Assembly: GCF_001425705.1 (NCBI RefSeq)
Contig: NZ_LMDC01000028.1
Location: forward strand, 1,061,119 to 1,125,118
Origin: Pelomonas sp. Root1217
GTDB taxonomy: Bacteria > Pseudomonadota > Gammaproteobacteria > Burkholderiales > Burkholderiaceae_C
Direction of reading: 5' to 3'
Length of the DNA stretch: 64,000 nucleotides
Positions 6,713 to 17,859 of this stretch are shown piece by piece. The position numbers and the translations under genes are program-made. Under the pieces are notes generated by a model that saw only the letters and a program-made list of their open reading frames with translations, did no database searches and was not told where the DNA came from. Each line of letters opens with the position of its first letter. Within the stretch, counting starts at the first letter, position 1.

Positions 6713-7423
6713 TCAGAACGCGGTCGTCAGGCCGAGCACCAGCGTGCGCCGGCGTGTCGCGTCCGTCCAGGTATAGGGCCCGCCGCGGCCGGCTGCTGTC
6801 CAGGCAAGCTGCAGCTCGCTGCTCGTGCCAAGTTGCCAGGAGGCACCCAGGCGCAGGTCTGCACGCGTCGCGCCATGCGGCTCGGCATAGGGCGAGGCCC
6901 GACCGCCGCGGCCATGCAGCAGGCCAACATGACCCAAGGCTGCCACGCCCCGCGCCAGCGGCCATCGCAGGTTGAACTCGGCATAGACGCTGCGCTGGCC
7001 AATACCGTAGTAGTCGGGCGAGACGTACGCGCGCAGGTTCCAGCGTTCTCCCAGCAGGCCGGCATAGACCTCCTGATAGTCGTAGTTCGACACGTTCTCA
7101 TAGGCATGGGCCACGATGCCGGCCTCGCCGTCCAGGCCCGGCGCCAGGCCGAAGACCCGGCCGCCATAGAGCTGCAGCGCGGCGCCACGCCGTTGGGAGA
7201 AGCGGGCATGCGCCAGCTGTGCCCCACCATACCAGCCGGCCTCGCCGTCCCAGGCCAGGCCAAGCTGGGCGCTGGGACGGTTGGCGCTGTACGACATGCC
7301 GCGCTCCCGCGCATCCGTCTGCAGCGACAGCGTGCCGCCCACGTCGGCCCAGGCTGCGCCCGCGCCGGCCAGCAGCGTGGCGACCAGCGTCGTCAGTCGG
7401 GCCAGGTGCGCGGGGGGAAACAT
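6713..7423 (-). CDS. Outer-membrane protein of the Gcw_chp/TIGR02001 type
   Basis: A 236-residue protein with a signal peptide ending near AWA (about residue 26) and a body of short amphipathic strands ending in LVLGLTTAF, a typical beta-barrel terminal strand with C-terminal Phe. The early segment LSLQTDARERGMSYSANRPSAQ, with a strand such as VSPDYYGIG later, matches the family of conserved proteobacterial outer-membrane proteins called Gcw_chp. The start ATG overlaps the TGA of the S8 protease (TGATG); a TTG one codon earlier is less likely. The function of the family is not established. Confidence 0.65.
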   Translation of the reverse strand: MFPPAHLARLTTLVATLLAGAGAAWADVGGTLSLQTDARERGMSYSANRPSAQLGLAWDGEAGWYGGAQLAHARFSQRRGAALQLYGGRVFGLAPGLDGEAGIVAHAYENVSNYDYQEVYAGLLGERWNLRAYVSPDYYGIGQRSVYAEFNLRWPLARGVAALGHVGLLHGRGGRASPYAEPHGATRADLRLGASWQLGTSSELQLAWTAAGRGGPYTWTDATRRRTLVLGLTTAF

Positions 7424-8628
7424 CAATCGGCAGTTTGCCCCAGCATCGTGCAGGTTGCGCCGCGAGTGCCGGCGTGGCGGGCCAGCGTCGCGCAGCTGTC
7501 GATGCGGCCCTGGGCGGTGTTGACCAGGGCCGTCTTCAGCGCCAGGGTGCCGCGCGTGCCGTCGAGCTCGCGCACCAGGGCGAGCAGGCCGGTCGCATGC
7601 GCGGCCGCGAAGGACGATCCCGAGACCAACGACCAGCCGCCACCCACGGCCGTGCTGGGCACGTCACGCCCCGGCGCGATGACGGCGCCTGCGGGCAGTG
7701 GCGGCGCAAGGCCGACGACGAGCACGCCGGGATGGTTGGCCGGAAAGGGCCCGTTCTCGCTCGGCATCGCCGCGACCACGGTGGCGCCGCGCGCCTGGGC
7801 CTGGTCCAGCAGCAGCGCGAGCAGCCGGTCGTCCGGCCCACCCAGGCTCATGTTGATGATGTGGGCACCCTGCTGGATGGCTGCGTACAAGGCCTTGGCC
7901 AGGCCCAGGCTGGTGCACAGCGTCTGGGTGCCCGCCGCCTGCCAGCAGGCGCGCAGGGCCAGCAACCGGGCTTGAGGCGCGATGCCGGCGATGCCCAGGC
8001 CGTTGTCGGCCCGCGCCGCGATGATGCCGGCCACCGCCGTGCCGTGGCCCTCGGCCGGCGGCGCCTTGTCGTCGACGAAGTTTTCGTTGACGGTGACCTG
8101 GCCGGCGAGGTCGGGGTGGTTGGCCTCCACGCCGCTGTCGACGATGGCCACACGCACGCCACGGCCGGTGGCCAACTGGTGCAACTCGGCCAGATGCCAC
8201 TGGCCTGCGGCCGGCTGGGCTTGGTAGAGGGGCTCCTGCTGGCTGCCCTGGGCGCGGTAGAGGCTGACGGGCTGGGCCCAGGCGACGCGCCTGTCCTCGG
8301 CCACAGCCTCGGCGACCTTCGCCGAACTGCGCGTGTCCCCCTCGGGCAGGCGCATGACGAAGCAGTCCACGCCGGCCAGCGGCATGGCCCATTCGCTGCG
8401 CATCTCCAGCTTGTGGGCCTGGGCCAGTGACTGGGCGACCTGCTGGCGCGACTGCCGGCCCACGCCCTCGCCATAGGTGCCCGCATAGCTGCCGTCGGGC
8501 CGGTAATGGGCCTTGGGCAGCTGCAGCATGACGAGGACCTGGCGCTGGGCGTCCTCGGCCTGGGCATGGGCGCCACCGCCGGTCAGGCAGCAGGCCAGCA
8601 GTACCAGCAAGCGCCGCCAGAGTCTCAT
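7423..8628 (-). CDS. S8 family (subtilisin-like) serine protease
   Basis: A 401-residue secreted subtilase. The signal peptide is about 1-23. A propeptide-like region spans about 29-125 (VLVMLQLP..., VDCFVMRLPEG), and the catalytic domain about 145-400. The triad is Asp164 (AIVDSG), His195 (GHGTAVAG) and Ser339 (GSSFAAAHATG). The usual AAGN oxyanion motif reads VVAAMPSEN, so the exact Asn is uncertain. It is coupled by ATGA to the anti-sigma gene and by TGATG to the outer-membrane gene downstream. Periplasmic or surface location is expected. It may take part in signalling with the anti-sigma factor, whose C-terminal domain looks like a subtilase propeptide. Confidence 0.9.
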   Translation of the reverse strand: MRLWRRLLVLLACCLTGGGAHAQAEDAQRQVLVMLQLPKAHYRPDGSYAGTYGEGVGRQSRQQVAQSLAQAHKLEMRSEWAMPLAGVDCFVMRLPEGDTRSSAKVAEAVAEDRRVAWAQPVSLYRAQGSQQEPLYQAQPAAGQWHLAELHQLATGRGVRVAIVDSGVEANHPDLAGQVTVNENFVDDKAPPAEGHGTAVAGIIAARADNGLGIAGIAPQARLLALRACWQAAGTQTLCTSLGLAKALYAAIQQGAHIINMSLGGPDDRLLALLLDQAQARGATVVAAMPSENGPFPANHPGVLVVGLAPPLPAGAVIAPGRDVPSTAVGGGWSLVSGSSFAAAHATGLLALVRELDGTRGTLALKTALVNTAQGRIDSCATLARHAGTRGATCTMLGQTAD

Positions 8629-9236
8629 TGCGCCGGACCCGGTTGCAGCGGCTCAGCCAGGGCGATGATGGGCGCCGTGCGCAGGGCAGCCAGGCCGCGA
8701 GCGTCGACACGCAGCAGCCAGGCGCCGGTCTCGGTGGGCCCGGCGACGACACCGGCGCCCTGGGCTTTCAGCAGTTCCCGCACCGCCTTCTCGGTGGTGC
8801 CGGGCTTGAACATCACCAGGGCATCCGCCACGACCGGCACGCTGCCGCTGGCGGACAGGCCCTGGTAGGCCGGCTCGTCGGAGCGCGGCGCCAGCACCAG
8901 GAACAGCAACAACGCGACGGCCGCGCCCTGCAGGCCCAGGGCCCAGGGCATCCAACGCGGCGCACGGACAGGTTTTGCCTTGAGCGGCTGCATCAGCGCA
9001 TGCATCTTTGCCAGTCCCGCCTCGACGTCGCCGCTGTGCAGCGGAGCACCGGCCACGCTCAGCAGCGTCTGCATGGGCTGCTCGGCCGCCAGCTCGTTGC
9101 GGCAGGCGGCGCAATGCAGCAGATGGCGCTGCACGGTGTCCATTTCGTCACCAGCCAGCTGACCGCGCGCATACCAGGGCAGCAAGGCCTGCATGGCTGC
9201 ATGCTCATCAGGTTCCATCGGGATCACCACACTCAT
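8625..9236 (-). CDS. Transmembrane anti-sigma factor, zf-HC2 type, with propeptide-like periplasmic domain
   Basis: A 203-residue protein with an N-terminal anti-sigma zinc finger (His38-x3-Cys42-x2-Cys45), a single transmembrane helix at about 97-116, and a periplasmic domain of about 85 residues. The last part (VMFKPGTTEKAVREL, then GAWLLRV, then IIALAEPL) has the beta-alpha-beta-beta-alpha-beta pattern and wording of I9-type subtilase propeptides. Family knowledge says the zinc finger holds the cognate ECF sigma factor at the membrane until a signal releases it. The ATG overlaps the sigma stop (TGATG); a GTG one codon upstream is possible. The adjacent S8 protease could be the partner of the periplasmic domain. 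Confidence 0.85.
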   Translation of the reverse strand: MSVVIPMEPDEHAAMQALLPWYARGQLAGDEMDTVQRHLLHCAACRNELAAEQPMQTLLSVAGAPLHSGDVEAGLAKMHALMQPLKAKPVRAPRWMPWALGLQGAAVALLLFLVLAPRSDEPAYQGLSASGSVPVVADALVMFKPGTTEKAVRELLKAQGAGVVAGPTETGAWLLRVDARGLAALRTAPIIALAEPLQPGPAQ

Positions 9237-9871
9237 CACAGTTCTCCTTGCTCCAGCCCGGCGAGGTCGTCGAGCAGGAGGCGCAGCCGGCGCCGGGCGT
9301 AAAACATCCGCGTCTTCACGGTCTCAGGCGGGCAGCCGACGACGTCGGCGATTTCGGCATAGGCCATGTCATGGAAGTAGCACAGCTCCACGACGGCGCG
9401 GTGCTCCGGTGACAGCTCGGCCATCGCTCCGCGCAGCCGGCCGCGCAGCTGTTCCAGCCCCAGGCGCTGCTCGGGCCCAGGCCCGGGGTCGGACGGCTCC
9501 TCCACGCTGTCGCCGTCCACCGGCAGGTCCTGGCGGCTGAGCGCCTTCAGGGCCTTGCGATAGGCGATGCCGAAGATCCAGGTCGACAGCTTGCTGCGCC
9601 CGTCGAAGCTGTCGGCGCGCTGCCAGACCACCATCAGGGTGTCGTTCAGCACCTCCTCGATGGCCTCCGGCTGGCGCATCAGATGCGACAGAAAGCGCCA
9701 CAGCCTGGGGTGGTAAACCCGATAAAGGGCGTCGAATTCAGCCCGCTGGCCGCGCTTGATGCCCTCCAGCAGGGTCAGTTCCAGCGCCTCGGCCGCCGGC
9801 CCGCGGGCAGAAGCAGCCGGTACTGCCGGGGCGTCATCGCGCTTTTTTCTGATGCTCGGCCACTTCAACAT
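9236..9871 (-). CDS. ECF-type RNA polymerase sigma factor
   Basis: A 211-residue sigma-70-family protein with region 2 (about 50-120: FDALYRVYHPRLWRFL, EEVLNDTLMVVWQRADSF) and region 4 (about 150-205: LSPEHRAVVELCYFHDMAYAEIADVVGCPPETVKTRMFYARRRL). The start is uncertain: the ATG at 9871 is chosen, but a TTG at 9928 is in frame and no strong ribosome site separates them. It is the first gene of the minus-strand run and is coupled to its anti-sigma factor. Together they probably control the protease, outer-membrane and radical SAM genes downstream in the same direction. Confidence 0.88.
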   Translation of the reverse strand: MLKWPSIRKKRDDAPAVPAASARGPAAEALELTLLEGIKRGQRAEFDALYRVYHPRLWRFLSHLMRQPEAIEEVLNDTLMVVWQRADSFDGRSKLSTWIFGIAYRKALKALSRQDLPVDGDSVEEPSDPGPGPEQRLGLEQLRGRLRGAMAELSPEHRAVVELCYFHDMAYAEIADVVGCPPETVKTRMFYARRRLRLLLDDLAGLEQGEL

Positions 9872-9955
9872 GCTCGCCACACGGGGTTCCAATGCGCATG
9901 AGTCCCGGCTCGGGGCCAGGAGGTTCAAAGCGATGGTAGCGAGCCCCCCCCCGAA

Positions 9956-10106: not shown

Positions 10107-12317
10107 TCAAGCCAGGCCGGCCAACGTCATTTCGTGCAGCCAGTGCGATTCGGCAAAGCCCTTGGTGTCATAGAGCTTCTTAAGCCGCGCGGTGGGCACC
10201 GGCAGCTTGCAGGTGGCCGCGGTGAAGTTCTGCTCGCCCTTGCCTTCCTTCCAGGCCGACTGCCAGACCGTCGCCAGCGTGACAGCGCCGTCGGCCATGC
10301 GGTTCATGGTGCGCTCGCCCAGTGCGGCCCACATCGCCGCCGACTGGCCGCGGCCATGCACCCGGCGGTAGACCTCCAGCACCTCCTCGGGCGGCAACTC
10401 CTCGATGGTGCGGCGCATCAGCTGCACGACGGCGTCCGCCGCGGCCATGGAGCCCTTGAACAGCGGGCGCTTCGCCGCCGCACCCACGCGCTGCTTGACG
10501 CCGACCACCACCTCGTCGGCCGCCTGGTTCAGCATGTCGTCCTCGTAGACGGCGTGCACCTTGTCGTCGTCGGCGTCGTCCGCCTGGCCATGGTGCAGAT
10601 GCGAGACATGCAGGGGCTGGCAGGCATCGCCGATGTAGTGGGCCAGCACGCCGGCGGCGCAGACGTAGGCGTCGAGCTGCTTGGCGGCAGCGGCCTGCAC
10701 CATGACCTTGTAGAGCTCGGCAACGCGAAAAGGCAGCGCGCCACGCTGCGCGGGTTTGCGGGCGGGGTCGATGCTGCTGTAGAACTGGTCCCACACCTGC
10801 GGGTCGCGCGACGCCGAGTCCTGCTGCCAGAGCTGGATCAGCGTCCTGCCCTGGAAGGTGGGCCCACGGCCGGGCTCGTCCATGTCGGCGAAGTGGTTGG
10901 CCTTGTCCTTGCCTCGGGTGCTGCGCCACACCAGGTCGGGCACATCGGCCAGGGCGATGAATTTGCTCGTCTGGGTGGCACCTGGCAGGTTGCCGGCGGT
11001 GATGTCCTCGTCGCTGACGCCGATGGCCGTCGCATTGGCCTTGAAGACGGCCTTGGCCTTGGCCGTCTGCAGCGCGAAGCAGGCGGCATAACCGATGTTG
11101 TAGTGGCCGACCTTGCCCCAGTAGCGGCTCTGGCCGCTGCGCCAGTCCTCGACGAGCTCGACGTTCAGCGCCTTGCACAGCGAACTGAAGCCGGTGGCCA
11201 GCGCGAACTCGGTGGCGCGGTTCGAATGCAGGGCGCCGAAGCCATGGCCGCCCCATTGCACGGCCAGCGGTCGGAAGTTCACCGGCGCAGGGGCGCCCTG
11301 GTCCTTGGCGGTGCGGTCGGCCACCTCGTCCCAGAACCACACGGCACCGGAGTCGCCCGGGCGCGTCTGCACGGTCTGGCCCGGCCGGCGCGGGCCGATG
11401 AGGAATTCCGCCAGCGCGTCCACGCCGCCCACGCTGGCATGGCGGTAGAACAGCCCGTGCACGCAGCCCTCGGTGCGGATGCCACCCGGCAGCTCCGTGA
11501 ACAGCGGGCAGCCGATCAGGTTGAGGCTCATCTTGTCGGAGCTCAGGTCGATGACGGGGCCGAAACCGCCGACGCCCAGGTACTGGGAATTGGTCGAGCC
11601 GATGCTGTCGAGTTTGACGAGGGCGGCGTCCAGCGTCAGCCGGGTATCGCGGCCGGCAAAGCCGGGGTAGATGTCGGCCAGCGGCAGCGCGTCGACGCTG
11701 CGCGACGTGATGTGCCCAATGCCGACCTTCTTGCCACGCGGCAGCGCAAAGACTGGCGCGCCGGGCTCGGTGCCCGAGGTCACGTGGCGGCTGACGAGGG
11801 CGAAGGCGCAGGCGCCGTCCTCGACGATGGCCGAGGCGACGCCCATGCGCGTCGCGCCCTGGTCGGCCACATGGACCTGGAAATTGGGGCCGAACTTGTC
11901 CGCGGCATAGAGGGCCGTGTCGGCCGGTGGCAGGTTGGCCACGCGCCGCTGCACGAGCACGGGGCAGGTGCGCACCTGGCGGCCGTCGGGCAGGTAGAGC
12001 ACCGGCGGCACCGCCAGCTCGGGGTGGCGGGACAGCGTCTTGCGGTCCAGCCATTCGGTGACGAAGACCAGCACGCAGGGCCAGGACCAGGGCCGGAAAT
12101 TGCTGTTGTCCAGCGTCCGGGGGCCGAGCTCCTTGCCGGTCTGCTCGGCATGCTCGTCCGCATAGTTGGGATCGTCCAGCCGGATGCGGTAGCGGCCCAT
12201 GGCCGTGCCGATGACGGTCGGCAGGTTGGCGATGTGGACGTGGTACTGGTCGCGCGCCTCCAGCAGGTCGCGCACGCTCAGGGTGCGCGGGTCGGCGCGG
12301 CGGATGAAGCGGTCCAT
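10107..12317 (-). CDS. Fusion of trypsin-like protease and S1/P1-nuclease (zinc PLC-like) domains
   Basis: A 736-residue protein without signal peptide or membrane helix. Residues 1-140 are unassigned. About 150-385 look like a trypsin-fold protease: His178 (LVSRHVTSG), Asp230 (LDAALVKLD) and Ser323 (PGDSGAVW). From residue 400 the sequence follows the S1/P1 nuclease and phospholipase C family: W400-G-x-x-G-H405, Asp458, His475 (NHFAD), His560 and Asp564 and His570 (HYIGDACQPLH), His588 and Glu592 (VHAVYED), which matches the order of the nine zinc ligands of P1 nuclease. In that family the Trp is the N-terminal residue of the mature enzyme. The start at 12317 follows GGGAGA; 12 more residues are possible. 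Transcribed divergently from the Mla operon. Confidence 0.82.
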   Translation of the reverse strand: MDRFIRRADPRTLSVRDLLEARDQYHVHIANLPTVIGTAMGRYRIRLDDPNYADEHAEQTGKELGPRTLDNSNFRPWSWPCVLVFVTEWLDRKTLSRHPELAVPPVLYLPDGRQVRTCPVLVQRRVANLPPADTALYAADKFGPNFQVHVADQGATRMGVASAIVEDGACAFALVSRHVTSGTEPGAPVFALPRGKKVGIGHITSRSVDALPLADIYPGFAGRDTRLTLDAALVKLDSIGSTNSQYLGVGGFGPVIDLSSDKMSLNLIGCPLFTELPGGIRTEGCVHGLFYRHASVGGVDALAEFLIGPRRPGQTVQTRPGDSGAVWFWDEVADRTAKDQGAPAPVNFRPLAVQWGGHGFGALHSNRATEFALATGFSSLCKALNVELVEDWRSGQSRYWGKVGHYNIGYAACFALQTAKAKAVFKANATAIGVSDEDITAGNLPGATQTSKFIALADVPDLVWRSTRGKDKANHFADMDEPGRGPTFQGRTLIQLWQQDSASRDPQVWDQFYSSIDPARKPAQRGALPFRVAELYKVMVQAAAAKQLDAYVCAAGVLAHYIGDACQPLHVSHLHHGQADDADDDKVHAVYEDDMLNQAADEVVVGVKQRVGAAAKRPLFKGSMAAADAVVQLMRRTIEELPPEEVLEVYRRVHGRGQSAAMWAALGERTMNRMADGAVTLATVWQSAWKEGKGEQNFTAATCKLPVPTARLKKLYDTKGFAESHWLHEMTLAGLA

Positions 12318-12333
12318 GGGGTCTCCCGAAAGC

Positions 12334-12389
12334 GAGGAGAGTGTCGGCGCCACCTACGGCGCCGGCAAAGCCATTGGCACCCTCTCCTC
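12334..12389. repeat. Inverted repeat in the divergent promoter region
   Basis: GAGGAGAG at 12334-12341 and CTCTCCTC at 12382-12389 form a perfect 8-base inverted repeat around a 40-base interval that also holds two GGCGCC palindromes. It lies between the divergent starts of the protease-nuclease gene (12317) and the MlaE-type gene (12421). It could be a regulator site serving either promoter; no partner is identified. Confidence 0.35.
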
Positions 12390-12420
12390 ATCAAGACTTG
12401 GGAGGCGCTATCGTTGCGGC

Positions 12421-13599
12421 ATGAGCGAAGCCGGCGCCTTGCCCCTGGACAACCCGATTGCAGTCGGGACCGGTGAATCTCCCGACGCCGCGCCACAGCT
12501 CGTTGCGGGCGGCACCGAGGCCGGCGGCGCGCGTGAATGGCGGGTCAGCGGTGACTGGACGGTGCTGGCCCTGCGCGAGCGCTACGACGAGTTCCGCCAG
12601 CGGGTGGCTGCCGCCGTTGCCGAGACCCCCGATGCGCTGTGGGACCTGCGCACCCTGGGGCGACTGGACACCGCCGGAGCGCTGACGCTGTGGCAGGGCT
12701 GGGGCCGCAAGCCGCCGCGGCGGCTGCTGTGGCTGCCCGAGCACGTGACGCTGTTCTCGCAGTTCATGCAGCCCACTGCCTTCCCGAAGCGCAAGCGCAG
12801 CCTCGGCCCCGGGCTGGAACTGGCCAGCCTGAAGACCCTGGCCTTCGCCCGCCATGGCATCGACATCGTCGCCCTGGTGGGCCGACTGCTGCTGGACTTC
12901 GTGCAGATGCTGCGCCACCCCTCGCTGATCGGCTGGCGCGAGATCTCGGCCAATGTCTACCGCACCGGTGCCCAGGCGTTGCCGATCACGGCCCTGGTGG
13001 GCTTTCTCGTCGGGCTGACGCTGTCCTATCTGATCTCGAGGCAGTTGAAAGCCTACGGCGCCGACATCTTCGTCATCAACATCCTCGGCCTGGCGGTACT
13101 GCGCGAGCTTGGACCGCTGCTGGCGGCCATCATCGTCGCCGGCCGCTCGGGTTCGGCGATGACGGCGCAGATCGGTGTCATGCGGGTCACGCAGGAGCTG
13201 GACGCGCTGTCGGTCATGGGCATCTCGCACACGGTGCGCCTGGTGGCGCCCAAGGTCATCGCGCTGTCCATCTCGCTGCCGCTCGTGGCGGTGTGGACGA
13301 GCGCCCTGATGCTGTTGGGCGGCATGGCGGCGGCCCGCGCCCAGCTGGGGCTGGACCCGACGCAGTTCCTGCACACCCTGCCCAGCGTCGTCGAGCCGGT
13401 CAACCTGTGGCTGGGCTGGGCCAAGTCCATCCTCTTCGGCGGGCTCATCGCGCTGCTGGCCTGCCATTTCGGGCTGCGCGTGAAACCCAATACCGAGAGC
13501 CTGGGCCAGAGCGTCACGCAGTCGGTCGTCACGGCCATCACGCTGGTCATCGTCGTCGACGCAGTGTTCGCAGTCTTGTTCTCCACCGTAGGCGTTTGA
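12421..13599 (+). CDS. MlaE/YrbE-type ABC permease of an MCE lipid transporter
   Basis: A 392-residue inner-membrane protein. An N-terminal soluble STAS-like segment (about 35-110: WRVSGDWTVLAL, DALWDLRTLGRLDTAGAL) precedes the MlaE permease domain (about 145-390) with roughly five hydrophobic segments and the conserved ALREL-type loop (AVLRELGPLLAAIIVAGRSGSAMTA, the coupling helix region). It pairs with the ATPase one base downstream. Family role: retrograde or anterograde phospholipid movement between inner and outer membrane. A longer upstream frame is shadow of the divergent gene. Fusion of a STAS domain to the permease is common in this subfamily, replacing a separate MlaB. Confidence 0.9.
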   Translation: MSEAGALPLDNPIAVGTGESPDAAPQLVAGGTEAGGAREWRVSGDWTVLALRERYDEFRQRVAAAVAETPDALWDLRTLGRLDTAGALTLWQGWGRKPPRRLLWLPEHVTLFSQFMQPTAFPKRKRSLGPGLELASLKTLAFARHGIDIVALVGRLLLDFVQMLRHPSLIGWREISANVYRTGAQALPITALVGFLVGLTLSYLISRQLKAYGADIFVINILGLAVLRELGPLLAAIIVAGRSGSAMTAQIGVMRVTQELDALSVMGISHTVRLVAPKVIALSISLPLVAVWTSALMLLGGMAAARAQLGLDPTQFLHTLPSVVEPVNLWLGWAKSILFGGLIALLACHFGLRVKPNTESLGQSVTQSVVTAITLVIVVDAVFAVLFSTVGV

Positions 13600-13600
13600 G

Positions 13601-14449
13601 ATGGAAAACCTGGAACCCATCATCGAAGTCGAGAACGTGACCACGGCCTATGGCGGCCATGTCATCCATCGCAACCTCAACCTGACCGTGCACCGCGGCG
13701 AGGTGGTGGCGCTGATCGGCGGCTCGGGCTCGGGCAAGACAACGCTGCTGCGCCTGCTCCTCGGCCTGGAAGTGCCCCAGGCCGGCAGCGTCAAGATCTT
13801 CGGCCACCCCTTGGGCCGCTGCGCGGTGCGCGACCTGGAGTGCGTGCGCTACCGCTGGGGCGTGCTGTTCCAGGCCGGCGCGCTGTTCTCGGCGCTGAGC
13901 GTCTACGACAACGTCGCCTTGCCCCTGCGCGAACTCAAGAGCGTGCCGGCCGACCTCGTCAAGCCGCTGGTCATGCTCAAGCTGGCGCAGGTCGGCCTCA
14001 AGCCCGAGGACGCGCTGAAGCGCCCGGCCGAGCTGTCGGGCGGCATGGTCAAGCGCGTGTCACTGGCGCGGGCGCTGATCCTGGACCCGCAGCTGCTGTT
14101 CCTGGACGAACCCACCGCCGGCCTGGACCCCGACAGCGCCAAGCAGTTCGTCAAGCTGCTGCGCCGGCTGCGCCAGGAGCTGGGCCTGACCGTCGTCATG
14201 GTCACGCACGATGTCGACACCCTGTTCGCCGTCGTCGACCGTGTCGCCGTGCTGGCCGACCAACGCATCATCGCCAGCGGCCCACTGTCCGAGGTCGCGC
14301 GCCTGCCGCATTCCTTTGTGCGCAACTTCTTCCTCGGCCATGTCGAGCGCTGCGCCGAGGAAGATGTGCGGCGTTTCCGCCTCAGCCTGGACGACACCAG
14401 CGATGAGGGCGGCGTGCCGGCCGTACTGCGAGAAGACGCTAACGTCTGA
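13601..14449 (+). CDS. MlaF-type ABC transporter ATPase
   Basis: A 282-residue ABC ATPase. Walker A is GGSGSGKTT at about 45-53, the signature is ELSGGMVKR, Walker B is LLFLDEPTAGLDP, and the switch histidine is in VVMVTHD. The Q-loop reads GVLFQAGALFSALSVYDNV, typical for MlaF-type proteins. It starts one base after the permease stop. It energises the lipid transporter formed with the MlaE and MlaD-like proteins, on the cytoplasmic face. Confidence 0.93.
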   Translation: MENLEPIIEVENVTTAYGGHVIHRNLNLTVHRGEVVALIGGSGSGKTTLLRLLLGLEVPQAGSVKIFGHPLGRCAVRDLECVRYRWGVLFQAGALFSALSVYDNVALPLRELKSVPADLVKPLVMLKLAQVGLKPEDALKRPAELSGGMVKRVSLARALILDPQLLFLDEPTAGLDPDSAKQFVKLLRRLRQELGLTVVMVTHDVDTLFAVVDRVAVLADQRIIASGPLSEVARLPHSFVRNFFLGHVERCAEEDVRRFRLSLDDTSDEGGVPAVLREDANV

Positions 14450-14460
14450 ACAAAATGAAT

Positions 14461-14536
14461 CAACCCCCACGCTCGCTTTGCTCGCTGCCCCCCGAGGGGG
14501 CGCGTCAGTGCCTTCGGACGGCCGGGCGCCACTGAC
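14461..14536 (+). repeat. GC-rich intergenic repeat inside the MCE operon
   Basis: The gap between the ATPase and MlaD-like genes holds an element with CCCCC-CGA-GGGGG and a 7-base stem GTCAGTG (14504-14510) / CACTGAC (14530-14536) that ends on the base before the MlaD start codon. Its opening CCCCCACGCTCGCT...GCTCGC is a wording I know from many Burkholderiales intergenic regions. It resembles in layout, but is not a close copy of, the elements at 9956 and 54780. No Shine-Dalgarno sequence is visible for the gene that follows. Confidence 0.6.
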
Positions 14537-15493
14537 ATGGAAAACAAAGCCCACGCCTTGGCCGCCGGCCTCTTTCTGCTGCTGCTTGGCCTCATGCTGG
14601 CAGCCAGCGTCGCCTGGTTCCAGGGCGACCGTACCGAGCGCGTGCGCTACACCGTCGTCGCCCGCAGCGGCGTGCCCGGCTTGAACCTGAAGGCGCCGGT
14701 CAAGCTGCGCGGTGTCGAGGTGGGCTACGTCGAGACGATTGGCTTCGACCCGGCCGATCCGCGCCAGATCCTCGTCGGCATCGCCGTCGATGCGGCCGCG
14801 CCCGTGTCGACCCAAACCTATGCGCAGCTCGGCCTGCAGGGCGTCACGGGTCTGTCCTTTGTCGGCCTGGAAGAGGCTGATACCAAGGGCACCCTACAGC
14901 GCGCTACACCCGGCACCCGCCTCGCGCTGCGGCCCACGCTGCTGGATCGCCTGGCCGAGAGCGGGCCGGGCCTGATCGCCGGCTTTGCCGAGACGGCCAA
15001 CCGGCTCAACGCCCTGCTCAGCGACGACAACCGCGCCCAGCTCGGCAAGACGCTCGCCGAGCTGCAGCAGGCTGCCGGCGACACCAGCAAGCTGATGGCC
15101 GCCCTGCAACCTGGCGCCCGCGAGCTGCCGGCGCTGCTGAAGGACGCCGACACCACCGCCCAGCGCGCCCAGGCCGCGCTGATCCGCATCGAGGCACTGG
15201 CCGCCGACGGCCAGTTGCTCGCCCAGGACCTGAAGGCCCGCACCAAGGCGCTGGACCAGCTGGAGGCGGCCGCCGCCCAGGTGCAGGCCACCAGCCGCAA
15301 CCTCGAGCTCGCGCTGGTCGGCGACGCGCCGCCGCGCACCCGCCCCGTGCTGGCTGACGTGTCAGCCGCCAGCCGCAGCATCGAGCGTGCCGCCAACGAC
15401 CTCGGCGACCAGCCGCAGAGCCTGCTGTTCGGCCGCAGTGCGCGGCCGCCCGGGCCCGGCGAGGCCGGCTTTGCAGAGCGCCTGAAGAAATGA
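14537..15493 (+). CDS. MlaD-type MCE substrate-binding protein
   Basis: A 318-residue protein with one N-terminal membrane anchor (about 8-27) and an MCE domain (about 36-115: RSGVPGLNLKAPVKLRGVEVGYVETI, LGLQGVTGLSFVGLE). The rest is long alpha-helical sequence (DDNRAQLGKTLAELQQAAGD, LPALLKDADTTAQRAQAALIRIEAL) as seen in PqiB- and Mce-type needles. It should form a periplasmic hexameric channel handing lipid to or from the ATPase/permease complex. Its stop overlaps the next gene by ATGA. The start codon is preceded directly by a hairpin rather than a clear ribosome site. Confidence 0.9.
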   Translation: MENKAHALAAGLFLLLLGLMLAASVAWFQGDRTERVRYTVVARSGVPGLNLKAPVKLRGVEVGYVETIGFDPADPRQILVGIAVDAAAPVSTQTYAQLGLQGVTGLSFVGLEEADTKGTLQRATPGTRLALRPTLLDRLAESGPGLIAGFAETANRLNALLSDDNRAQLGKTLAELQQAAGDTSKLMAALQPGARELPALLKDADTTAQRAQAALIRIEALAADGQLLAQDLKARTKALDQLEAAAAQVQATSRNLELALVGDAPPRTRPVLADVSAASRSIERAANDLGDQPQSLLFGRSARPPGPGEAGFAERLKK

Positions 15494-16068
15494 AAGCAAC
15501 ATCGATCCTGCTGGCCGTCGCGCTGGCATTGAGTGCCTGCTCTCTCGCACCGACGGCGCCACCCCGGGCCGTCTATGACCTCGGCCCCGCGCCTGCAGCG
15601 GCCGCCAGTGGTGGTGCGCTGGCCTGGCGCGTAGCCGATGTGACGGCGCCACCCTGGCTGTCGGGCGACGGCATCGCCTATCGCCTCAGCTTTCAGCAGG
15701 CCCAGCGCCTGGAGCATTATCGCGACAGCGTATGGGCTGCGCCACCCGCGGCGCTGCTGACGCAGCGCTTGCGCGAGCAGCTCACAACGCCATCCGCCTG
15801 CAGCGGCAGGCTCGCGCCTCTGCTGGCAGTCAACCTCGACGAGTTCGAGCAGGTGTTCACCAGCCCCACGAGCAGCCAGGTCGTGCTGCGCCTGCATGCG
15901 ACGCTGGGGCCGGCGGGCGGCACCGGCCCCAGCATGCAACGGCACTGGCGCATCGAGCGGCCTGCCGCCACGCCGGACGCACCCGGCGCCGTGCGTGCCA
16001 TGGCCCAGGCGGTGGACGAACTGCTGCCGCAGCTGGCCGAATGGCTGGCGGCATCGGCCTGCCGCTGA
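15490..16068 (+). CDS. ABC-type transport auxiliary lipoprotein (PqiC/DUF330-like)
   Basis: A 192-residue lipoprotein with lipobox LSAC (Cys17 region) and the family opening YDLGP (residues about 30-34) found in PqiC and related MCE-associated lipoproteins. The rest is a small alpha/beta domain ending in AVDELLPQLAEWLAA. It probably sits on the inner leaflet of the outer membrane as the receiving end of the MCE bridge. It overlaps the MlaD-like gene by four bases and closes the operon; the convergent PEP-CTERM gene ends 20 bases later. Confidence 0.82.
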   Translation: MKATSILLAVALALSACSLAPTAPPRAVYDLGPAPAAAASGGALAWRVADVTAPPWLSGDGIAYRLSFQQAQRLEHYRDSVWAAPPAALLTQRLREQLTTPSACSGRLAPLLAVNLDEFEQVFTSPTSSQVVLRLHATLGPAGGTGPSMQRHWRIERPAATPDAPGAVRAMAQAVDELLPQLAEWLAASACR

Positions 16069-16088: not shown

Positions 16089-16874
16089 TCAGCCTCTATC
16101 GCGCGACCGACCGGCGCGGCGGCGCTGCAGCCAGCCCAGCACCAGCAGGCCGGCGCAGGCCATCATCCAGCTCGACGGCTCGGGCACGGCTGCCGCTGTC
16201 ATGAACTGGCCGGAGGCCGAGCTCGTCATCACACCGTCTGGCAGGGTCCAGTTGAAGTGCAGGGTGTTGCCGAAGTCGGCGCTGGTGTTGGGGCTGCCGG
16301 CATAGGGCAGCGCGACGGCCGAGGTGTAGAGCTCGGCGAAGATGAAGACCTTGCTGTTGCCCAGGGGGATGGCCAGCTCATCGCCAAAGACCGTCGTGCC
16401 GGATTTCAGCTGCACGGCAGGGGCATAGTCGTTCAGGCGATCGAAGAAATCGGCCTTGGGGTCGCCGACATAAAAGCGTGTCCAGGCCAGCGCATTGCCG
16501 CCAGGCGTCAGCGTGCCATCGATGCTGACGCTGAGGTTGGCCAGACCGAGGTTCTGGCCGTTCTGGAAGGTCACCGTGTCCCAGAAGCGGGCCACCGATT
16601 CGGCGCCCGTCTTGGCACGGCAGCCCGGGCAGGGTGTGGCGCTGGAGGCTGCGTGCAGCGTGCCGTCGCCAAGGCCTGCCATGCCCCAGGCATAGGAGTA
16701 CTTGTAATACGACGGCGTGTTGGCCATGGCCGAGAAGCTGCCCTCGCCACCGCTGCGGGTGCCGCCTGTCGTACCGGCGTAGCTGCCGTAGTTGGGCGTC
16801 GCGGCTTGCGCGGTGAAGGTCAGCAGGGTGGCGCTGGCCAGGGCCAGCGCGAGAGTCATCGAGGTCTTGTTCAT
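16089..16874 (-). CDS. PEP-CTERM sorting-domain protein
   Basis: A 261-residue exported protein: signal peptide about 1-25 (ending FTAQA), a glycine- and serine-rich beta-strand body with one pair of cysteines (TPCPGC), then the sorting signal VPEPSSW, a hydrophobic stretch and a basic tail (LQRRRAGRSRDR). Family knowledge: such proteins are processed by an exosortase during export. No exosortase gene is in the window. The start is the ATG at 16874; an upstream ATG would add seven residues and overlap the E1-beta stop. The function of the body is unknown. Confidence 0.82.
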   Translation of the reverse strand: MNKTSMTLALALASATLLTFTAQAATPNYGSYAGTTGGTRSGGEGSFSAMANTPSYYKYSYAWGMAGLGDGTLHAASSATPCPGCRAKTGAESVARFWDTVTFQNGQNLGLANLSVSIDGTLTPGGNALAWTRFYVGDPKADFFDRLNDYAPAVQLKSGTTVFGDELAIPLGNSKVFIFAELYTSAVALPYAGSPNTSADFGNTLHFNWTLPDGVMTSSASGQFMTAAAVPEPSSWMMACAGLLVLGWLQRRRAGRSRDRG

Positions 16875-16887
16875 GGTGGTCTCAAGT

Positions 16888-17859
16888 TCAGACATTCAGG
16901 GGTTGGGTGTTCATCAGTGCCCGCGCGCGGGCGGCGATCTGTTCGGGCTGGGGCACGGCGGCCTGCTCCAGCGGCCAGCTGGCCAGCGCCGGGGCGTCGG
17001 GACCGGTCAGGCGCTGGGGTGCGGCCTTCAGGTCGGCAAAGGCCTCTTCGGCGACGACGGCGCACAGCTCAGCCGCCAGGCCGCACAGGCCGCTGGCCTC
17101 GGTCACGCACAGCAGGCGGCCGGTCTTGCGCACTGAAGTCAGCACGGTGGCCGTGTCCAGCGGCTTGAGGCTGCGCAGGTCGATGACTTCGGCCTCCACG
17201 CCCTCCGCCTGCAAGGTCAGCGCAGCGGTGAGGCAATGGCCGACGGTCTTGCCGTAGCCCACCAGCGTCAGCGCGTCGCCGCGCCGGCGCACCGCAGCGC
17301 ACCCGGGCAGCAGCAGCTCGTCGCCATTCACATCGCCCGGCGCATGGGCCAGGCCGATGTCGCTGAACAGCAGGCTGGGCAGAGGCTGACTCAGGGCGCC
17401 GGTCAGCAGCCCGGCGGTGTCGCTCGGCGTGCTGGGCATCAGCACCTGCAGGCCGGACACGTGGGCAAACAGCGCCTCCAGGTTGTGGTTGTGCTGGCCG
17501 CCGATGGCCCAGCCGGCCCCGGTCTGGGCCAGCACCACCATCGGGAACTCGAACTGCCCCCCGCTCAGCGCCCCGAGCTTGCCGGCGCTGTTGACCAACG
17601 CGTCCATGGCCAGCATCAGGAAGGGCGAGTACAGCAGGTCCACGACGGGGCGCAGGCCCATGGCCGCGGCACCCACGGCACAGCCGACGATGCTGGCCTC
17701 AGCCAGCGGCGTGTTGCGCACACGCTCGGCACCGAAGGCGGCCAGCAGCTCGGGATTCTTGGTGGCCACGCCCTCGCCGATGAAGAAGACGCGCTCGTCG
17801 GCCGCCATCGCACGGCGCAGCGCTGCCATCAGCGCTTGCTGGGAAGTCATCGTTTGCAT
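16888..17859 (-). CDS. Thiamine-diphosphate dehydrogenase E1 component, beta subunit
   Basis: A 323-residue transketolase-type beta subunit (pyrimidine-binding half plus C-terminal domain). Landmarks: FFIGEGVATKNPELL, RVRNTPLAEASIVGCAVGAAAMGLRPVV with the conserved E near the cofactor pyrimidine, then VIDLRSLKPLDTATV and the TEAS motif of the C-terminal half. With the alpha subunit it should decarboxylate a 2-oxo acid or cleave acetoin and pass the acyl group to an E2 lipoyl protein. No E2 or E3 gene is nearby, so the partner is encoded elsewhere or absent. GAAGGAG overlaps the alpha-subunit stop and fixes the ATG at 17859. Confidence 0.88.
   Translation of the reverse strand: MQTMTSQQALMAALRRAMAADERVFFIGEGVATKNPELLAAFGAERVRNTPLAEASIVGCAVGAAAMGLRPVVDLLYSPFLMLAMDALVNSAGKLGALSGGQFEFPMVVLAQTGAGWAIGGQHNHNLEALFAHVSGLQVLMPSTPSDTAGLLTGALSQPLPSLLFSDIGLAHAPGDVNGDELLLPGCAAVRRRGDALTLVGYGKTVGHCLTAALTLQAEGVEAEVIDLRSLKPLDTATVLTSVRKTGRLLCVTEASGLCGLAAELCAVVAEEAFADLKAAPQRLTGPDAPALASWPLEQAAVPQPEQIAARARALMNTQPLNV

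Follow-up and report, generated by a model that had tools for sequence, protein, structure and literature searches.

The window, a stretch of 64,000 nucleotides from a contig of Pelomonas sp. Root1217, carries a gene whose product is predicted, from its amino acid sequence, to combine a protease with a zinc enzyme of the nuclease/phospholipase type (Table 1). A sequence-only reading of the locus had placed a catalytic triad at His178, Asp230 and Ser323 and a zinc-binding Trp at position 400, and translation of the reading frame puts all four residues at these positions. An in-frame GTG at 12353, 12 codons upstream, is a possible alternative start. Homologues that align over most of the length of the protein, at 32-98% identity and from other phyla as well, bear out the view that this frame is a real fusion and not a chance one. 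The ratio dN/dS (Nei-Gojobori type) of the fusion gene is 0.10 against the homologue at locus L005 and 0.29 against that at L006, both of the same genus, and it is at most 0.32 for each of the two domains in these comparisons. The absence of a signal peptide was likewise supported. The N terminus has no strong hydrophobic segment, the best 10-residue mean hydropathy being 1.4 over about the first 60 residues, the region and measure by which signal-likeness was judged. A secreted enzyme mistaken for a cytoplasmic one was rejected on the strength of this missing segment. On the same strand, a subtilase gene (Pfam S8) is found some 1.5 kb downstream of the fusion, and the zf-HC2 protein encoded there may be an anti-sigma factor.

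Table 1. Features of the fusion gene and its surroundings (positions in the window; the last row gives positions in locus L050)
Feature	Position	Strand	Basis
Whole gene, protease-nuclease/phospholipase fusion, 736 aa	10107..12317	-	ORF translation and full-length homologues
NAL1-like trypsin-fold protease region, residues 1-392 (predicted)	11142..12317	-	NAL1 profile match and Foldseek
His178, protease triad	11784..11786	-	kept in 15/15 rows covering the position
Asp230, protease triad	11628..11630	-	kept in 16/16 rows
Ser323, protease triad, motif GDSG	11349..11351	-	kept in 16/16 rows
Linker of constant length, residues 393-399, proposed cut after Tyr399	11121..11141	-	gapless in 16/16 rows; low AlphaFold2 pLDDT
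Trp400, main-chain zinc ligand, predicted first residue after the cut	11118..11120	-	16/16 rows
S1/P1 nuclease / zinc phospholipase C domain, residues 400-736 (predicted)	10110..11120	-	AlphaFold2, Foldseek and hhalign
Zinc ligands besides W400 (H405, D461, H475, H560, D564, H570, H588, E592)	10542..11105	-	each in 16/16 rows
Subtilase (S8), zinc-finger (zf-HC2) protein and ECF-type sigma factor, downstream of the fusion, same strand	7423-9928	-	Pfam
Divergent operon: MlaE permease, ABC ATPase, MlaD protein, auxiliary lipoprotein	12199-16068	+	Pfam
Protein with C-terminal PEP-CTERM motif	16089-16895	-	Pfam
Trypco1 domain gene, 18 bp past the stop codon of the fusion in L050, with a subtilase gene next	L050:11839-12186	+	Pfam

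Proteins with the same two domains were sought, and the fusion was read at 21 loci (the window, L005-L019 and L047-L051), which belong to five bacterial groups. Eleven of them lie in genome contigs of Pelomonas, Ramlibacter, Myxococcaceae, Archangium, Minicystis, Acidobacteria, Ferruginibacter, Deminuibacter and Bacteroidetes, and four are plasmid copies from Sphingobium, Ensifer, Sinorhizobium and Neorhizobium. Four of the 21 copies are interrupted (L007, L014, L018 and L019, two of them on rhizobial plasmids), which may mean that a costly gene is being lost, or may come from errors in sequencing. The alignment used below has 16 rows, namely the window and 15 loci; it excludes L005, at 98% identity, as well as the four interrupted copies, and the L010 row is partial because that locus ends at a contig end. 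The distribution of the fusion is sporadic. Counting in each case the genome on which the search was centred, it was found in three of 60 relatives (E <= 0.001; the window's own genome and two of the same genus) and in one of 369 genomes of the class (E <= 1e-20), again the window's own. At E <= 1e-40, a threshold that would miss distant or one-domain relatives, it was found in one of 398 genomes of the phylum (its own), in 2 of 395 in the Bacteroidota set (one new), in 4 of 195 in the Myxococcota set (two new) and in 3 of 297 in the Acidobacteriota set (two new). The fusion was not matched in phages, and among viral contigs none of the seven stretches that fitted a pattern was confirmed. The triad and the zinc ligands are kept across bacterial groups in homologues 32-47% identical to the window protein, and the two predicted activities, protease and zinc enzyme, therefore appear to have been retained together.

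AlphaFold2 prediction of the whole chain (mean pLDDT 70.9) places strands within residues 35-374 and helices from residue 403. A PDB search with the single fusion sequence detected neither domain. A family profile of 11 homologues matched chains of rice NARROW LEAF 1 (NAL1) with an E-value of 1.8e-13 over profile positions 80-354. Foldseek with the full model also placed NAL1 at the top (E 2.5e-16), followed lower down by S1-type proteases, PC-PLC (E 3.8e-3) and AtBFN2 (E 1.2e-2). The trypsin-like fold proposed for the first part of the protein is thus supported by a profile match and by the predicted structure, and with its His-Asp-Ser triad this part belongs among the trypsin-fold (NAL1-like) serine proteases. 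None of the Pfam protease models matched the fusion protein at E <= 1. NAL1 is a plant developmental protein that forms hexamers. Among solved structures it stands nearest to the protease part, by sequence profile as well as by fold, whereas the matched NAL1 chains have no zinc-enzyme domain. In trypsin, an Asp occupies the position six before the catalytic Ser; this position is Asp in one of the 16 rows, the partial L010. The region ahead of the trypsin fold also has weak similarity to NAL1.

Residues 400-736 were modelled in isolation with a pLDDT of 90.6 and a pTM of 0.92, as an all-helical domain like those of the S1/P1 family. Foldseek ranks 1-24 for this model were all of the S1/P1 nuclease / zinc phospholipase C fold that the sequence-only reading had assigned to it. 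Their E-values are modest (0.002-0.22), and the assignment therefore rests on sequence, fold and ligands jointly. On the sequence side, the Pfam S1-P1_nuclease model matched from residue 400 with an E-value of 6.5e-6 and 26.6 bits, just under its cut-off of 29.5, and reached 29.9 bits when neighbouring residues of the frame were included. The Pfam model of zinc-dependent phospholipase C (PF00882) gave a weak match short of its cut-off (E 0.0059; 17 bits against 26.8), and the family profile matched Arabidopsis endonuclease 2 weakly (E 0.02). Profile-profile alignment of the fusion with 40 ordinary S1/P1 proteins gave an hhalign probability of 99.4. All nine zinc-ligand positions (W400 and the eight listed in Table 1) proved invariant in the 16 aligned rows, which supports the full set noted from the sequence alone. 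In the profile-profile alignment the catalytic Asp pairs with D461 and not with D458, and residue 458 is Asn in L051; Asp65 of S1 nuclease is described as essential (PMC5201275). Residues from about 440 to 470 are predicted poorly in the full chain and well in the isolated domain. This contrast would fit a zymogen, but the smaller AlphaFold2 job can equally explain it.

Nucleic acid and lipid are both candidate substrates of residues 400-736. It is quite possible, although we lean the other way, that the effector is a phospholipase damaging the inner membrane and not a nuclease. The highest target TM-score was obtained with Listeria PC-PLC (0.70), and the ninth ligand, Glu592, together with the motif NHFADMD resembles the zinc phospholipases. 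However, the lowest Foldseek E-values were those of the nucleases AtBFN2 and SmNuc1, and the S1/P1 model is the one preferred by Pfam. Phe476 and Asp478, which follow the ligand His475, moreover parallel Tyr89 and Asn91, which follow His88 of SmNuc1 and are described as binding the nucleoside (PMC11705217). The ninth ligand of SmNuc1, in contrast to the Glu of the fusion, is given as Asp179 (PMC11705217).

The zinc enzymes of this family have been characterized as starting at their Trp. The mature chain of S1 nuclease begins at Trp21, whose main chain binds zinc (PMC5201275), and in SmNuc1 the main chain of the N-terminal Trp27 does so (PMC11705217). Both are like the fusion in fold, in the nine ligand positions and in the WG..GH start (PMC5201275, PMC11705217); S1, unlike the fusion, is reported to have a signal sequence removed ahead of the Trp (PMC5201275). 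The earlier reading had given a start of the mature enzyme at Trp as a rule of the family, and a sample of ordinary S1/P1 members agrees with it. A hydrophobic stretch ends at most 12 residues before the Trp in 36 of 40, and the residue before it is Ala, Gly, Ser or Thr, likewise in 36 of 40, with L092 counted at the wrong Trp. Twelve of the 40 lie below the Pfam cut-off, and each count is 24 of 28 above it. The sample came from 43 loci, of which 40 had a readable Trp (L059, L094 and L095 were left out), and one S1/P1 search behind it gave loci for 30 of its 34 matches. A clear hydrophobic stretch is absent from one ordinary member, L085. As a control, 31 PF00882 loci (L001 and L098-L127) were inspected for cytoplasmic proteins whose Trp is internal, and in the ten that were clearly readable the Trp follows a signal-like stretch. 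Besides the fusion, the window's own genome encodes two ordinary members with a signal-like segment (L086 and L096). Three weak matches to the nuclease half were found in two host genomes (E 4.8e-10 to 1.1e-6); one of them, L040, has a hydrophobic stretch directly before the Trp and counts as an ordinary family member.

The fusion has its Trp at position 400 and an N terminus that is not signal-like, in place of a mature start at a Trp behind a signal peptide. By its sequence, therefore, the fusion is an S1/P1 relative with a different maturation. The linker ahead of Trp400 is exactly seven residues long, counted from Trp392, without gaps in the 16 rows, and residue 392 is Trp in 13 of these. 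In the full-chain model, pLDDT is below 50 at residues 390-401. Most other positions of the linker vary, and residue 399 is Tyr (13), Thr (5) or Ser (3) in 21 of 21 loci, a count over the 16 aligned rows, L005 and the four interrupted loci, which are related and do not represent 21 independent cases. Two sites had been offered for a cut, after Tyr399 or near Arg398. The second is unlikely as a family rule, with Arg at position 398 in 2 of 16 rows, and a trypsin-type cut after Arg398 was rejected as a general rule on this count and on that of the Asp six before the catalytic Ser.

The genes around the fusion were compared across all ORFs of at least 80 residues in 20 loci and in the first 24 kb of the window. 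Of the 55 ORF groups present in at least three loci, 50 were limited to the window, L005 and L006; many of these are the same genes read in antisense or alternative frames. The three loci have a common gene order on both sides, with the fusion at one shared chromosomal place. The other groups were one found in six loci (in L008 it is a response regulator, and only there does it adjoin the fusion), one that joins L007 to these three at 7.8 kb (the window's ABC ATPase), one that joins L050 to them (the subtilase), one on rhizobial plasmids at three loci (in L017 and L018 with the annotation MFS transporter) and one shared by L047, L048 and L049. Among the 55 groups there was no constant neighbour of the fusion and no partner conserved beyond the window's close relatives. 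When 20 neighbouring ORFs were scanned, 15 had a Pfam match; these were Trypco1, two peptidases and otherwise metabolic, transport, regulatory, secretion and other general families. Among the window's neighbours, Pfam and PADLOC revealed no specific defence gene. The PADLOC scan of seven window ORFs returned generic subtilase and ABC-ATPase matches only; the window's ATPase alone matched 19 models (best mad3, E 2.2e-32), and these generic-looking matches were not counted as defence hints.

The fusion itself may be connected to defence in several small ways. The PADLOC model PDLC03017 ('trypsin-like', 611 positions) matches the window protein in a single stretch that spans both domains, as it does in five of eight homologues, the other three being matched in two stretches. 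The nuclease half of the window protein matches this model by itself (E 8.9e-6), and the protease half (residues 1-399) by itself matched no PADLOC model at E <= 0.1. Among 58 genomes of the Myxococcota set, PDLC03017 matched only the genome that carries the fusion. In L050, a Trypco1 gene follows the fusion, and this domain was named for its co-occurrence with trypsin-like peptidases in conflict systems (PMC7159879). Near the plasmid copy L016 there are transposition genes and a gene annotated as an anti-phage dGTPase. The PDLC03017 match, the Trypco1 gene, the sporadic distribution and the four plasmid copies are counted here as hints, faint ones, of a role in cell death or defence.

The best explanation of these observations, to which we give an even chance, is a cytoplasmic two-enzyme zymogen in which the protease would cut after residue 399 and the freed Trp400 would complete the zinc site for an attack on the cell itself. 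The C-terminal zinc enzyme would fold with its three-metal site incomplete for as long as the amino group of Trp400 is held in a peptide bond. Upon a trigger signal, the NAL1-like serine protease would cut after residue 399 in its own chain or in a neighbouring copy. The freed amino end of Trp400 would then complete the site and switch on a phosphodiesterase, which would attack nucleic acid or membrane lipid in the cell that made it, as a final measure against phage or other stress. The sequences and models show the architecture, the conserved catalytic residues, the N terminus unlike a signal and the linker of fixed length; we infer the off state, the cut, the cutter, the substrate and the biological role. 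More tentatively, at somewhat worse than even chances, the protease domain may be the sensor of the signal, and its single cut may supply the attached nuclease or phospholipase with a missing metal ligand, so that activation would be the chemical completion of an active site and not the removal of a plug.

A need for the cut is supported indirectly, in that the Trp stands behind a signal-like stretch in ordinary members and behind a folded domain in the fusion, which counts for a zymogen; the constant length of the linker and the hydroxyl residue at its end count for a cut after 399. That the attached protease makes this cut is plausible, as a triad intact throughout the rows that include it and a linker of low predicted confidence make this protease the natural candidate, in cis or in trans. 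Counted against the proposed mechanism are the choice of Tyr, Thr or Ser at residue 399, which gives no single specificity residue, the four interrupted copies, the lack of a conserved partner gene beyond close relatives, the lack of a match in phages or of a confirmed one in viral contigs, the window neighbours without a specific defence gene and the isolated protease half that no PADLOC model matched. Could the enzyme do without the cut? The carbonyl of Trp400 might bind the metal while the hydroxyl of residue 399 replaces the amino group, leaving the protease to separate targets. This would explain why the hydroxyl persists at 399 in all 21 loci despite a variable linker, and some ordinary members too have residues before the Trp. 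Cutting after Tyr, Thr or Ser accounts for the same conservation, however, and Listeria PC-PLC is described as an inactive proenzyme in which a single residue added before W1 reportedly abolishes activity (PMC10576769). We regard activity in the uncut chain as unlikely.

Equally doubtful is the idea that some other cellular protease makes the cut, the attached one being a sensor or acting on other proteins as in multi-protease cascades. Trypsin-like and subtilase domains co-occur in a published conflict system (PMC7159879), and the subtilase downstream of the window gene has counterparts of the same kind near L005, L006 and L050. Subtilases are common, however, the link to L050 runs through the generic S8 domain, and 17 of the 21 loci fall outside the subtilase group, whereas the protease triad is never lost in the rows that cover it. 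An accidental fusion in a housekeeping or nutrient-scavenging enzyme would suit the ordinary chromosomal surroundings of several loci, but is very improbable for a protein that is kept across phyla, sporadic in its presence and free of a secretion signal.

The elements of a self-activating zymogen have each been described in other systems. Protease-gated nucleases (PMC12799240), protease-nuclease fusions (PMC7159879, PMC13236601) and zinc phospholipase C proenzymes (PMC10576769) are already published; no published description of the present fusion was found in the open-licence literature searched. In bacterial immunity, a trypsin-like protease switches on an MBL-fold pro-nuclease in Hachiman, AVAST, Lamassu and DRT systems, and in the Hachiman fusion the protease is reported to require oligomerisation to act (PMC12799240). 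These systems resemble the fusion, as predicted from its sequence, in coupling a trypsin-like protease to a nuclease that has to be cut to become active. They differ in that their nuclease is described as the product of a separate gene, of MBL fold and with gating loops cut after Ile (PMC12799240), whereas the fusion is one chain of the S1/P1-phospholipase C fold in which the cut would make a metal ligand. The fusion thus lacks the MBL-fold nuclease gene beside a protease-defence-enzyme fusion that marks those systems (PMC12799240), which leaves the claim of a similar way of working unaffected. Protease and nuclease domains are united in one polypeptide in the Trypsin-NucA systems, for which a proteolytic cascade deploying the nuclease has been proposed (PMC7159879), and in LypC of Caulobacter (PMC13236601). 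Unlike the fusion, the former are described with NucA, of the HNH superfamily, as their nuclease (PMC7159879), and the latter with an endonuclease domain whose activity is reported to be dispensable for lysis (PMC13236601). Listeria PC-PLC belongs to the same fold family and is likewise inactive until a protease removes the residues before Trp1; in contrast, it is secreted, and its 26-residue propeptide is removed by a separate metalloprotease (PMC10576769).

If the proposed activation holds, the protein may keep a destructive enzyme locked by a safety catch of its own. It would be a compact suicide switch of bacteria, with a catalytic metal ligand made by a single cut, and protease-activated effectors would then include the S1/P1-phospholipase fold. 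The plant protease NAL1 would also gain a bacterial relative whose substrate is probably part of the same chain. A sharp prediction follows for the zinc enzyme: the domain should work when Trp400 is its first residue and should be inactive when one further residue precedes it. In four of the ordinary members (L054, L055, L058 and L069) at least ten residues separate the hydrophobic stretch from the Trp, and the residues before it are V, D, R and Q, none of them small. The Trp rule may therefore not be strict, and these four proteins may also need a second cut.
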